The position numbers were made by a program, and so were the translations under genes. DNA of 52,302 nucleotides from Planctomycetia bacterium (lineage in GTDB: Bacteria > Planctomycetota > Planctomycetia > Pirellulales > JALHLM01), in contig JAWXBP010000016.1 in the NCBI GenBank assembly GCA_034440135.1, positions 1-52,302 of the forward strand, in the 5' to 3' direction. Positions 38,470 through 44,868 of this stretch are shown one piece after another. A model generated the notes under the pieces. The model was not told the origin of the DNA. It ran no database searches and saw only the letters and a program-made list of their open reading frames with translations. The first letter of the stretch is position 1; each line of letters starts with the position of its first letter.

Positions 38470-38703
38470 GTCCTATACACACAACTGTTCATTGGTCCCG
38501 CGGCTGTTACGGCGTTGGCGGCACGGGATTTGCGCCCTGGCGTTTGGTGGTGTTGACCCGCCAGAATTGCCGGGAACGCGACGACGGGCCCTCGTTTTTT
38601 TCCCGCTCCACGCACAGCGTGTGAAATCCGCCCGGCAGCGGTATGCTAGGGGATGAATCACATCCCACGGCGCACGCGTTCTTCATCGTCGCGGAGCTCG
38701 AAA

Positions 38704-41019
38704 ATGGACCTAGGCCATCGCACGCGAATCGTGTTAGTGATGTTCTTCGCGGTATGGGCCGCCTGCGTCGCATCGTCCGCCGCCCAACCCTTCGAGCCTG
38801 CGCAGCCAGGTAAGTTGCAATCCGATCCCAGCGCCAACGCACTGGCCCTGCGGATTGAATTGTCCGCGGACGGTCGGACGAAGGACATCGATCTCGAACA
38901 ACCGTTCCATGTCGTGCTGAAGAACAACTCAAACGAAGTGCTTCGCATCTGGAATCCGCGCCTTCGCCAAGGCTACCGGCAGCTGTCCTTTCGCTTTCGA
39001 GATCCTCATTCCGAAAAGTCGCTAGTCGTGGCCAAGCGAGACATCAGCGACGATGAGTATTGGAATTCGACGATGAAGCAAGTCGTACCACCTTCGTCAT
39101 CCATCGAAATCGCGCCCGGCGACACCCATTTCATTCGTGTCCGTTTCGCCGACTACGCTAACGAAAACGACGTCTGGGAGAATCTGCCCGATCTCAATTC
39201 ATCGACCCAATTCGAGGTCACGGCGATTTTGGAGTCTTCCGAAAGCGATGGCACCGACAGCTCCGGCGTATGGCATGGAACGATCCAAAGCGATCCCATC
39301 TCCGCCAGGTACATTGCGCCCGACTTAAAGACCGCTCACGACTATCTGGTGGCGGGCTACACGAAACAGGCAATCCAATTGGCCAGCCAGGATCGGCGGG
39401 CGTTACGTCGCCGCGTTGACGAGATGACTCTGCTCCACGTCGCGGCTCAGCGAAACAACGTGGAGGCCCTCACCTGGCTTCTCGAACACGGCGCCGACGT
39501 TGATGCAAAGACGTACAATGACTCCACAGCGTTGCACCTGACGGACGATCCGAAGATCGTCGAACTCCTCCTGACGAAGCACGCCGACGTTTCGCCGCGC
39601 AATTCAGACTCAGCCGACAACCTGCGGTCAGCCTATCATGACGCGATCGAAGAGTTCACGGACGCCCGCGACGAACCTGAGCGCACGAAATGGCGCAAGA
39701 TCATCGACCTTTATTTGACAACAGGCGCGGAGTACGACCTTTTCGCGGCCATTCACTTGGATGATCTGGCGGGCGTTAAGCAGATTCTCGAGGCCGATCC
39801 GCAGCAGGCCAAGAAGCGGTTGTTCCGGAGTCCGCTGCGGATGGCAGCGCGGTTGGGACGCGTGGACATCTGCAAACTACTGATCGAGCAATACGACGTG
39901 GATGTCGACGATTTCGAGGGAGGCAGCGGCTTTCCCATTATCACGGAAGCGGTGCAGTTTCCTGAAATCGTGCGACTGTTGATTGCGAACGGCGCCGACC
40001 TGAAGACCCGGATTACGTGGCGAGGCGGTTGGGGAGGTGGCAAGGCAATTGGCGACAATGCCACTGCGCTTCACTTCGCGGCCTACGCGAACAACGCCGA
40101 GACAGTGACGTTGTTGATCGACAACGGCGTGGGTATTTTCGCCGAAACCCAAGATATCACCCCCAATTTGTCTAAGCAAATGGCCCTCGATGTGGCGGCT
40201 TCTTGCGGCAGTGCCGCGAGCGCCGAGGCGATGATCAATCATCCAAAATTCGACGAAGCGGACGAAGGCGTGCGAAAGAAATTGCTCGACGAGTCCCTGT
40301 GGAAATTCGCGTCCACCATTTGGGTGACCGACAAAGCCGAACGTCCGCGACTGATAGAAGTACTCATTGCCAAAGGGGCGAATCCCAATGTGACCTTATA
40401 CGGCAGGACGGCGTTGCAAAACGCGGTGGCTAGGATTTACCCGTCAGACAAGCCGGACAGCAGGGAAGGCCGCCAGGGCGTCGACGTCTTGAAGCATCAC
40501 GGGGTCAAGGTCGACTTCCATTCCGCCGTGAAATTGGGGGATGAAGAGGCCGTGGCCGCGGCCTTGGCGGCGAATGCCGCGGTGGCCAACGACCTGGGGC
40601 CGGAAGGCCGGCCGGCGCTGCACGTCGCCGTCGATTTCGACCACCGCGGAATCGTAGCCTTACTCATCAAAGCGGGCTGTGATCTGGAGATTCGCAACAA
40701 AAGCAAGTCAACAGGTTCGCCGGATGCGACCGCGCTTCACGCGGCGGCATTCTGGCGCCGAGAGGAGATCGCGCGGATGCTGATTGAAGCCGGAGCGGAC
40801 GTGAACGCGAAGTCGGCGGACGGAGCCACGCCATTGCATGAATCCGCCAGAGTGACCACCATCGCGGTGGCCAAGTTGCTGCTGGCAGCCGGTGCGGACG
40901 TCAACGCTAAGGACAACGAAGGCAATACGCCACTTGACCAGCTGCGTGAGGAGGATGACGAAAACGCCGCCGAGATGGAAAAACTCTTGGCGAAGTATCA
41001 CGCCAAATCCGCACAGTAA
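38704..41019 (+). CDS. Secreted ankyrin-repeat protein
   Basis: This is a large exported ankyrin protein (771 aa). The start at 38704 begins a signal peptide (MDLGHRTRIVLVMFFAVWAACVASSAAA-like); ATG 38653 adds an Arg/Ser-rich leader. The N-terminal 170 residues form a beta-domain of unknown type. Ankyrin units then occur in two blocks: TLLHVAAQRNNVEALTWLLEHGADVDAKT, TALHFAAYANNAETVTLLIDNG and, near the end, ALHVAVDFDHRGIVALLIKAGCDLEIRN, TALHAAAFWRREEIARMLIEAGADVNAKS and TPLHESARVTTIAVAKLLLAAGADVNAKDNEGNTPLDQL. The repeats bind other proteins; the partner is unknown. It is convergent with ahcY, separated by a nested hairpin. Confidence 0.88.
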   Translation: MDLGHRTRIVLVMFFAVWAACVASSAAQPFEPAQPGKLQSDPSANALALRIELSADGRTKDIDLEQPFHVVLKNNSNEVLRIWNPRLRQGYRQLSFRFRDPHSEKSLVVAKRDISDDEYWNSTMKQVVPPSSSIEIAPGDTHFIRVRFADYANENDVWENLPDLNSSTQFEVTAILESSESDGTDSSGVWHGTIQSDPISARYIAPDLKTAHDYLVAGYTKQAIQLASQDRRALRRRVDEMTLLHVAAQRNNVEALTWLLEHGADVDAKTYNDSTALHLTDDPKIVELLLTKHADVSPRNSDSADNLRSAYHDAIEEFTDARDEPERTKWRKIIDLYLTTGAEYDLFAAIHLDDLAGVKQILEADPQQAKKRLFRSPLRMAARLGRVDICKLLIEQYDVDVDDFEGGSGFPIITEAVQFPEIVRLLIANGADLKTRITWRGGWGGGKAIGDNATALHFAAYANNAETVTLLIDNGVGIFAETQDITPNLSKQMALDVAASCGSAASAEAMINHPKFDEADEGVRKKLLDESLWKFASTIWVTDKAERPRLIEVLIAKGANPNVTLYGRTALQNAVARIYPSDKPDSREGRQGVDVLKHHGVKVDFHSAVKLGDEEAVAAALAANAAVANDLGPEGRPALHVAVDFDHRGIVALLIKAGCDLEIRNKSKSTGSPDATALHAAAFWRREEIARMLIEAGADVNAKSADGATPLHESARVTTIAVAKLLLAAGADVNAKDNEGNTPLDQLREEDDENAAEMEKLLAKYHAKSAQ

Positions 41020-42512: not shown

Positions 42513-42782
42513 GTGCTGCTCCTTTGTGTATTCCGCCCAGTTTTCCGGCGTTCGTGCGCCCGCATCCGCCCGTTGCGCTCGTGTGCGAGCACTCCCGGGG
42601 AACTCCGCCGGGTACGATGGGGTCAAACAAAATGATAGGTGGGACGACGTTTCCCGCAAGTGGCGTTTTCACCCCCCTGGGCGATGGAAACGAGCGCATT
42701 TCCGCTCTTTCGAGCGGCTTAGGAACCGCTTAACATCCCGCCCGATTAACTGGCAACTTGGAATTGAGTGAGGAACCGAACC

Positions 42783-43319
42783 ATGCGTAGCAGCTTATGG
42801 ATGTTGGCCGTGCTGGCCGTCGCCGCGTTGGTCCCGACCGCCCAGGCCGGACCGGTCTATTTCCTGGTGGCCGAGTTGCCCGGGGAGGAAGTACATGGCG
42901 ACTCGTATGTCTTGCCGCTAGAGAATCCGCTCGACATCGCCCACGCGCGGGAGTTGATCTCGCTCGGCCCATCGGCCGGCGCGACGATCGCCGTCGCCCG
43001 CATCGCAGAAGGCCCCGACGGCATCAATCGCGACTACCGCGCCGTGGGCCAACCGGCCTGGAATTGGCACGTCACGGAGTTCGTCGGCTTCGCGGACAAC
43101 ACGATCGAAGTCCTCGACGGCTGGCCCAGCGACGTGGAACGGGACGTTCCGGCCTGGATCGGCAACACGAACGGCATGGTCGGCTTCTGGAGCTACACCG
43201 TGGTGGAAGAATTGTCGAACGTGCCGGAGCCGGCAACGTTCGTGATCGCCGCTCTGGCGATTCCGGCTACGATTGGCATCGTCTGGCGGAAGCGCCGCGG
43301 CGCCGGCGATTTTCGTTGA
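42783..43319 (+). CDS. Small PEP-CTERM secreted protein
   Basis: This is an exported protein of 178 aa destined for PEP-CTERM/exosortase processing. The N-terminal signal (MRSSLWMLAVLAVAALVPTAQA) is followed by a mature domain of unknown fold: VYFLVAELPGEEVHGDSYVLPLENP, and AWNWHVTEFVGFADNTIEVLDGWPSD. The C-terminus is a textbook sorting signal: VPEPATFVIAALAIPATIGIVW then RKRR. Its exosortase is not in this window. ATG 42783 follows GAGGAA by about 8 nt. It is divergent from ahcY and directly followed by the larger PEP-CTERM protein (43402). Confidence 0.88.
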   Translation: MRSSLWMLAVLAVAALVPTAQAGPVYFLVAELPGEEVHGDSYVLPLENPLDIAHARELISLGPSAGATIAVARIAEGPDGINRDYRAVGQPAWNWHVTEFVGFADNTIEVLDGWPSDVERDVPAWIGNTNGMVGFWSYTVVEELSNVPEPATFVIAALAIPATIGIVWRKRRGAGDFR

Positions 43320-43401: not shown

Positions 43402-44868
43402 ATGCGCATCCAACTTCGGTTCCTGGCGGCGGTCTTGGCGGTGGGCCTGATGCTCTGGGGGTGGCGAGACGCCCAGGCGGAGCGATTCATCACGCTCGGG
43501 CCTTCCGACACTTTCGCGCTGGGGCAGCCGATTGTGTCCTTCGAAGTGTTCCAGGACGCGGCCGGGACGCATAGCTTCGGCCCCACGGACGAGCGGAAGA
43601 ACCTGCTCCTCGATACCGGCGCCAACGGCATTTTGCTCGACGGCGGGGCTTACGATGCGCTCCGAGCCCGCGGCTATCAAACTGTCTCCGTTTACGACGA
43701 ATCCGGCGTCGCAGGCACCACGCCGATGGACGTCTCGGAGGCGTATCGTCTCGACTACACGGGTTCCAGCGGACAGCGATTCACGATTCCCGACGCTCGC
43801 ATCATGTCGAACGCGGATCTCGATTTCGGCTCGGCCGCCGGCTTCTATGGGCTGATCGGCATGCCGGGCATGGCGGGCAAGATCATGTCGATGGGCATCA
43901 ACGGCGAGTGGATCTCCAGCGGCGGCGGACTGTCGCTGGGGGCGTTATCGCCGCCCGTCACGTTTCCCGACGAAATGCCGGCCGACGCGGGTCATCGGTA
44001 TCGCGTGCCGCTGAGGATGCAGGACTTCGAGCAGTCTGGCCTGCGCCATCCGAACGATCCGCTGCCGACCTGGGCGCCTCTCCCGTTTACGCCGGTGGAT
44101 GTCGAAGATGCCGGGCAGTCGTTCCGCGGTGAAATGTTGGTTGACACCGGCGCGCAGATGTCGGTCATTTCGCTCGCGATGGCGCTGGCCCTGGGCGTCG
44201 ATGAAAACGGCGACGGCTCAGTCGACGACGACGCGATTGACTTTATGCCCATCACGGGCGTGGGCGGGATTGCGCTGATGCCGGTCGTTCAGGTCGGACG
44301 CCTGAGCGTGATCACCGACGAAGGAATCGAAATCGGCTGGACGGACCTCTCCGTGGGCGTCCGCGATATCGATCCCAGCATCGCCGGCATCTTCGGGATG
44401 AACTTCTTTACCGAAGGCTGGACCGACGCGATCATCAGCGAATTGATCTGCGATCTGTTTCCAGAGTTTTGCACTGGCGAGAGTCCGGAAGGATTTCTGA
44501 ACGACGTCCACTTCGACTTTCGAGACATCGGCTCTGGCCAAGGCAGCATGGTCTTCGATCTGAATCCTGCCAAGGACGTCATCCAAGGTGCCGTCGATGG
44601 CGACACGAACGGCGACGGCGTGGTCAACATCACGGACGCGAACAACGTCCGCAACAACTTCGGCGAGGCCGGTGAAGGGGTACTCGGCGACACGTTTCCG
44701 TTCAACGGCGTGGTCGACGTCGAGGACTTGAACGCCGTGCGCAATAACCTTGGCGCTGGCGCGGCGTCGAATGCCGTGCCGGAGCCGAGTGGGCTGGCGA
44801 TGGCTTTTTGGACGTTCGTGTTGACGATTCCAGCGATCGCGGGACGACGCTTCTTACGCCGCCGATGA
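43402..44868 (+). CDS. PEP-CTERM aspartic protease-like protein with dockerin-like segment
   Basis: This 488-aa exported protein combines three modules. A signal peptide is at residues 1-26. The central region has two pepsin-type catalytic motifs, LLLDTGANGIL at residues 68-78 and MLVDTGAQMSVI at 245-256, each hydrophobic-hydrophobic-DTG, as in two-lobed aspartic proteases of bacterial type. Residues 400-452 are a dockerin-type pair of calcium-binding repeats: GDTNGDGVVNITDANNVRNN and a second, less complete one (FNGVVDVEDLNAVRNNL). VPEPSG at 459 opens the PEP-CTERM signal ending RRFLRRR. Protease activity is likely but unproven. Its last 15 bp overlap the end of the convergent histidine kinase gene. 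Confidence 0.85.
   Translation: MRIQLRFLAAVLAVGLMLWGWRDAQAERFITLGPSDTFALGQPIVSFEVFQDAAGTHSFGPTDERKNLLLDTGANGILLDGGAYDALRARGYQTVSVYDESGVAGTTPMDVSEAYRLDYTGSSGQRFTIPDARIMSNADLDFGSAAGFYGLIGMPGMAGKIMSMGINGEWISSGGGLSLGALSPPVTFPDEMPADAGHRYRVPLRMQDFEQSGLRHPNDPLPTWAPLPFTPVDVEDAGQSFRGEMLVDTGAQMSVISLAMALALGVDENGDGSVDDDAIDFMPITGVGGIALMPVVQVGRLSVITDEGIEIGWTDLSVGVRDIDPSIAGIFGMNFFTEGWTDAIISELICDLFPEFCTGESPEGFLNDVHFDFRDIGSGQGSMVFDLNPAKDVIQGAVDGDTNGDGVVNITDANNVRNNFGEAGEGVLGDTFPFNGVVDVEDLNAVRNNLGAGAASNAVPEPSGLAMAFWTFVLTIPAIAGRRFLRRR

Follow-up and report, generated by a model that had tools for sequence, protein, structure and literature searches.

The gene at positions 43402-44868 of the window (the whole 52,302-nucleotide stretch of DNA that was analysed) probably encodes a secreted, surface-displayed, single-chain aspartic endopeptidase of the retropepsin-like kind. 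The gene and all features of its product lie on the forward strand, and the assignment draws on the open reading frame (488 amino acids, ATG start), a Pfam Asp_protease_2 match and an alignment of 22 family members; a PHROGs search of the protein returned no match. Arranged along the 488 residues were found a signal peptide, two lobes with one DTG motif each, a dockerin-like pair, and an end composed of VPEP, a hydrophobic stretch and RRFLRRR. In the mechanism we propose, the signal peptide (residues 1-26; 43402-43479; predicted by inspection to be cut after DAQA, with hydropathy and a model helix at residues 2-24 in agreement) would export the protease. Its two homologous lobes, each supplying one DTG aspartate, a psi-loop and a GxxG-tipped flap, would build one water-activating site, and the flaps would close over an extended peptide bound at this shared site. 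Removal of the PEP-CTERM-like end by an exosortase would then keep the enzyme at the cell surface or within exopolysaccharide, where the dockerin-fold stalk would most likely be a spacer or address stabilised by calcium, not a cohesin plug.

Two lobes and a predicted shared active site

The earlier note, made from the letters of the DNA, had taken two DTG motifs 177 residues apart as the sign of a two-lobed protease, and proposed a check that the DTG loops form a single active site. The spacing was exact (D71 to D248), and the structural model, its superposition on solved proteases, the homology of the lobes and the conservation of the family all agree with such a site. Lobe 2 (about residues 195-390; 43984-44571) was matched by Pfam Asp_protease_2 (PF13650) at residues 238-335 with an E-value of 7.3e-8 (33.5 bits versus a cut-off of 24.3), and its extent was set by the model and superposition. 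Lobe 1 (about residues 27-190; 43480-43971) had no Pfam match and was defined from the AlphaFold2 model, superposition and a lobe-versus-lobe profile alignment; NCBIfam reported for the full protein just a sub-threshold clan AA match. Profile-profile comparison found the two lobes to be homologous, with DTG aligned on DTG (probability 93, E-value 3.3e-7) and the local alignment stopping at the GxxG flap tips. By the alignments and the model, each half has a D[TS]G-type motif, a flap hairpin and a hydrophobic-hydrophobic-Gly psi-loop, including: (i) in lobe 1, the DTG of residues 71-73 (43612-43620) with the predicted catalytic Asp71, a flap hairpin at residues 94-120 (43681-43761; model strands 94-102 and 105-120) tipped by G102-V-A-G105, and the psi-loop motif at residues 151-155 (43852-43866) with G153 and P155; and (ii) in lobe 2, the DTG of residues 248-250 (44143-44151) with the predicted catalytic Asp248, a flap hairpin at residues 278-304 (44233-44313; model strands 278-286 and 289-304) tipped by G286-V-G-G289, and the corresponding motif at residues 330-334 (44389-44403) with G332.

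The AlphaFold2 model was built from the 22-protein alignment and reached a pLDDT of 81.7 and a pTM of 0.75, with most of both lobes between 80 and 96. In a single superposition, model residues 39-373 were placed on tethered HIV-1 protease (1g6l) over 186/198 residues at 2.5 Å (Z 15.2), and Foldseek independently ranked tethered HIV-1 protease first. The best structural match was a putative endopeptidase of Bacteroides fragilis (9iy9), onto which residues 38-386 were superposed with 249 aligned positions at 3.9 Å (Z 15.8). Identity to solved proteases among the matches listed was 11-19%. Profile matches in the PDB were mainly to Ddi1 and retroviral proteases and of modest significance, the best being 2i1a (E-value 9.9e-6, on lobe 2). 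From the superposition of the whole model we infer that Asp71 and Asp248 would lie close together.

Conservation was examined in 66 family members. In the 22-protein alignment the invariant positions were D71, G73, A74, G105, G153, P155, P222, D248, G250, A251 and G332, a set that takes in the catalytic loop and the psi-loop glycine of each lobe and one of the flap glycines; G286 and G289 were nearly invariant. The cores of the aligned proteins were 18-39% identical to that of the window. This alignment omits L031 (a near-copy of L030), the weak matches L042-L053, and the duplicates L013-L015 (for L020, L019 and L023) and L024-L028. A further 44 relatives, drawn from 44 genomes among the other 95 of the host's order with a match and picked to span families and genera (after dropping L078, which is the window's own protein, and L081, a duplicate of L126), had the lobe 1 DTG in every case and the lobe 2 DTG in 43, the exception being L106 with DTA. 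Across all members examined the motif was thus kept in 66/66 first lobes and 65/66 second lobes; for L104, where lobe 1 is a gap in the alignment, it was located by reading the sequence. Asp_protease_2 was likewise found in 22/22 and 44/44 of the two sets. The whole-model superposition together with the near-total conservation of the DTG motifs supports a single-chain retropepsin-like aspartic endopeptidase, in which the two aspartates are predicted to catalyze peptide cleavage.

A fold of this type could be kept without cutting, the two lobes serving as a surface binding or structural module in the manner of the inactive pepsin-fold proteins. One such inactive protein, soybean basic 7S globulin (3aup), was among the Foldseek matches, several relatives in the 22-protein alignment carry large insertions between strands, and the DTA in lobe 2 of L106 points the same way; we nonetheless consider this unlikely, as a non-catalytic role would not demand that both DTGs and both hydrophobic-hydrophobic-Gly loops be retained in nearly all 66 diverged proteins. 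That the protein is a family A1 pepsin of eukaryotic origin, and not a tandem retropepsin, appears extremely unlikely. The Pfam scan at E ≤ 1 gave retropepsin-like models alone and no pepsin model, the PDB profile matches were those to Ddi1 and retroviral proteases, and the GxxG flap hairpin is kept in both lobes, all of which outweighs the comparable Z (about 15) at which pepsins superpose on residues 39-389. Two lobes with one aspartate each in a single chain is an arrangement shared with family A1; classic family A2 is defined by a dimer of identical single-lobe chains. With two diverged lobes in one chain, the planctomycete protein is predicted to work like an A2 homodimer rather than to be one.

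The dockerin-fold tail and the cohesin question

The tail module spans residues 394-455 (44581-44766). Pfam Dockerin_1 scored 15.3 bits on the whole protein and 22.6 bits on the tail alone, versus a cut-off of 22.9. Modelled in isolation, the tail had a pLDDT of 92.8, and 20 of 20 PDB matches to this model were dockerin-containing entries (best 2y3n_B, Z 8.5, 2.3 Å over 59 aligned residues). The dockerin-like pair described in the earlier note is therefore real, with two loop-helix repeats in a dockerin fold as in type I dockerins; the term dockerin-like is correct for the fold, and the function that it implies is putative and unproven. Calcium-loop-like repeat 1 (DTNGDGVVNITD; residues 401-412; 44602-44637) has the canonical 12-residue D-x-N-x-D-G spacing. 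Repeat 2 (DTFPFNGVVDVED; residues 430-442; 44689-44727) is a variant with one extra residue (13), in which F-P at positions 3-4 takes the place of the position-3 ligand and position 6 is N. Of the calcium ligands looked for in both repeats, those of loop 1 are canonical, and loop 2 departs from the canonical set at the positions named, though in a conserved way; calcium binding by the module is a prediction from its fold and loops.

An alignment of 28 tails from the host genome, comprising that of the window and 27 others (L002-L008 and L058-L077), placed these loops in context. Loop 1 was of the 12-residue canonical form in 28/28, and loop 2 was the 13-residue variant in 16, of canonical length in 11 and of 14 residues in one. 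Within the 13-residue form, D-[TA]-x-P-x-[DN], proline occupied position 4 in 16/16; the deviation from a canonical calcium loop is a conserved one. All except one of the tails (27/28) finish in a PEP-CTERM-like stretch. As a separate observation, the 717-residue frame of L006 (G000:C334) reads from a dockerin/PEP-CTERM protein without a stop into a type IV-pilin-like (N-methylation) start, which may reflect a genuine fusion, an absent stop codon or an error of assembly.

Docking of the pair to cohesin-type partners, as the earlier note had envisaged, is weakened by these results. No cohesin was detected in the host genome, where PF00963 had no match at E ≤ 1 and a profile of four planctomycete cohesin domains gave nothing beyond one match at E 0.108; that match is a PEP-CTERM protein and was taken as chance. 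Since the genome is in 534 contigs and 96% complete, a cohesin gene could have been missed. Among the 18 genomes that bear the protease in the phylum-wide search described below, just 2 have cohesins above the cut-off, and their proteases are without PEP-CTERM; the 9 genomes whose protease has a PEP-CTERM-like end have none above the cut-off. In addition, the protein query has 135 further matches elsewhere in the host genome, none of which starts before query residue 271. The protease core is thus without a paralogue, and the tail is a common module of the genome that indicates no particular partner. It is very unlikely, given that no cohesin was detected, the missing loop 2 ligand and the other tail matches (more than 100 in a single genome), that the pair plugs the protease into a cohesin-bearing surface scaffold, cellulosome- or 'planctosome'-like, on which neighbours are processed. 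Such a scaffold would agree with the dockerin fold of the tail and its exclusively dockerin-containing PDB matches, and a cohesin/dockerin peptidase complex, the 'planctosome', was hypothesised for freshwater Planctomycetes in the extracts consulted of PMC6461901. The genome raises a separate question, namely the role of over 100 dockerin-fold tails in the absence of a recognisable cohesin. One answer, a long shot, would be that the dockerin/PEP-CTERM tail acts as a cohesin-independent address that gathers more than 100 proteins in one surface matrix, and that the single-copy tethered retropepsin is the maturation or shedding protease of this matrix, cutting proteins with the same tail.

Surface sorting, gene neighbourhood and distribution

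The PEP-CTERM-like C-terminus occupies residues 459-488 (44776-44865; model helix 462-487). Its PEP motif, hydrophobic stretch and basic cluster were read in the sequence and fall below the reporting of the curated models, as neither Pfam PF07589 nor NCBIfam TIGR02595 reported this end at E ≤ 1. On a profile of 20 tails from the same genome, the tail fragment scored 14.0 bits versus at most 5.0 bits in 300 shuffles; the full-length protease was not reported by this profile. The host genome encodes two exosortases above the TIGR02602 cut-off, each gene with a chain-length-determinant-like gene for exopolysaccharide synthesis after it (named by inspection), and has 99 PEP-CTERM matches, which include the neighbour of the protease (43221-43298) and not the protease itself. 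The exosortase route to the surface suggested by the earlier note is borne out to the extent of these genes and matches, and the protease has a signal peptide (by inspection) in an exosortase-encoding genome, as is characteristic of PEP-CTERM proteins. Cutting by an exosortase and a final location at the surface would follow from this layout. An exosortase was present in 18/18 protease-bearing genomes, including those whose protease is without PEP-CTERM, so its presence did not discriminate between the two forms.

The anchor varies across the family. A C-terminal PEP motif was found in 44 of the 66 members, while eight proteins (L030, L032, L033, L035-L037, L039 and L040) have dockerin-like pairs alone at the end, autotransporter-type PATR repeats accompany the protease core in 5 of the 44 further relatives, and others carry fibronectin III, Ig-like or Calx-beta domains. 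Dockerins were detected in 9/22 aligned proteins (E ≤ 0.1) and 19/44 further relatives (E ≤ 0.01), counts that come from Pfam only, a sequence pattern having missed the window's own pair. A quick tree requires seven or more changes of the PEP state, and some of the rows scored as lacking PEP may be truncated where a contig or stretch ends. Constancy of the catalytic core across varying tails argues for selection on the peptidase, with the tail serving to display it; the best reading is that the catalytic core is the conserved part and the anchor is interchangeable.

The genes beside the protease are not conserved. The product of the upstream neighbour (42768-43319, forward strand), which ends 82 bases from the protease gene, is secreted and carries a BP74_N domain (PF23621, E-value 2.1e-17) and a PEP-CTERM. 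The second PEP-CTERM protein that had been reported to adjoin the protease is thus present, and its standing as a partner found no backing, as over 49 loci including the window this neighbour matched just itself and no gene family stood beside the protease in more than five. Downstream lies a convergent PhoR-like kinase, whose reading frame overlaps the end of the protease gene by 15 bases. Elsewhere in the window, a 788-residue ankyrin-repeat protein (38653-41019, forward strand) was observed to have an apparent signal peptide at its start. As to what the protease would cut, we can offer a guess: surface-matrix proteins, or external peptides taken as food. The processing of surface proteins put forward in the earlier note is a guess of the same kind.

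Profiles revealed a family that is widespread in planctomycetes and seemingly without a name. A 22-row core profile (E ≤ 1e-8) found it in 96/296 genomes of the host's order, as a single copy in 93 of the 96; two rows were recorded in G448, G473 and G503, and in G448 they are a pair of pieces that lie on separate contigs. The spread is patchy, with 200 of the 296 genomes giving no match at this threshold, including the second genome of the host's genus, which is 83% complete. Throughout the phylum, a profile search identified 18/392 genomes at E ≤ 1.1e-10, of which 16 are outside the order and two are the window's genome and G167 of the same order; at a looser E ≤ 1e-3 the count was 40/392, with many weak or one-lobe matches. 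Searches with a single sequence were less sensitive, detecting 5/392 phylum genomes (the window's own included), and a single-protein scan of the genome contig collection detected none. A one-pattern scan of that collection yielded 8 loci outside the host's order, every one with a planctomycete title.

Relation to known systems

Retropepsins are usually homodimers, and the characterisation of bacterial ones is only now under way. In the open-licence literature we found no description of planctomycete retropepsins with a PEP-CTERM or dockerin tail. The present family is a candidate agent of extracellular proteolysis in these bacteria, a process about which little is known. Its C-terminal layout is that of the PEP-CTERM/exosortase system, in which a C-terminal PEP, a hydrophobic stretch and a basic end were described (Haft et al. 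2006, PMC1569441, as excerpted); the exosortases are present here and the motif of the protease is below the curated-model cut-offs. The closest published idea to docking is the 'planctosome', which, as outlined in parts of PMC6461901, is built on cohesins and zinc peptidases, unlike the system considered here. Bacterial pepsin homologues share two lobes with one active aspartate each; according to portions of Rawlings and Bateman (2009, PMC2761423), they belong to family A1, are predicted to be intracellular and were found in seven species, and the words searched for planctomycetes were absent from the text of that paper. Secreted retropepsin-like proteases with flaps are known from Pseudomonas as RloA, for which the sections available of PMC12239564 describe homodimers of single-lobe chains and propose glutamate-rich peptides as substrate. 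RloA and the planctomycete protease are both bacterial, secreted and flapped, and differ in that RloA is a single-lobe homodimer.

The structural relatives set the architecture in perspective. The retropepsin domain of Ddi1 was the best sequence-profile match in the PDB (2i1a); it is eukaryotic and intracellular and, unlike the planctomycete protein, a single-lobe homodimer. The B. fragilis protein 9iy9, on which no paper was found in the open-licence literature, is likewise an exported bacterial protein with two lobes in a single chain; it differs in its 11% identity and an extra N-terminal part, the matched region beginning at its residue 180. Since 9iy9 is a solved bacterial precedent for a two-lobed single chain, the architecture as such is not novel. 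The tethered dimers of HIV-1 retropepsin (1g6l and 1hvc) have the same lobe fold, with a DTG, flap and psi-loop per half, and superpose at a Z of about 15 and 2.5-3.1 Å. In contrast to these engineered tethers, the planctomycete halves are naturally one chain, have diverged from each other, are about 150 residues longer, and are predicted to be secreted and anchored. A natural one-chain fusion with two flaps, in single copy and with a varying anchor, bears on how two-lobed aspartic proteases originated from one-lobed ones.
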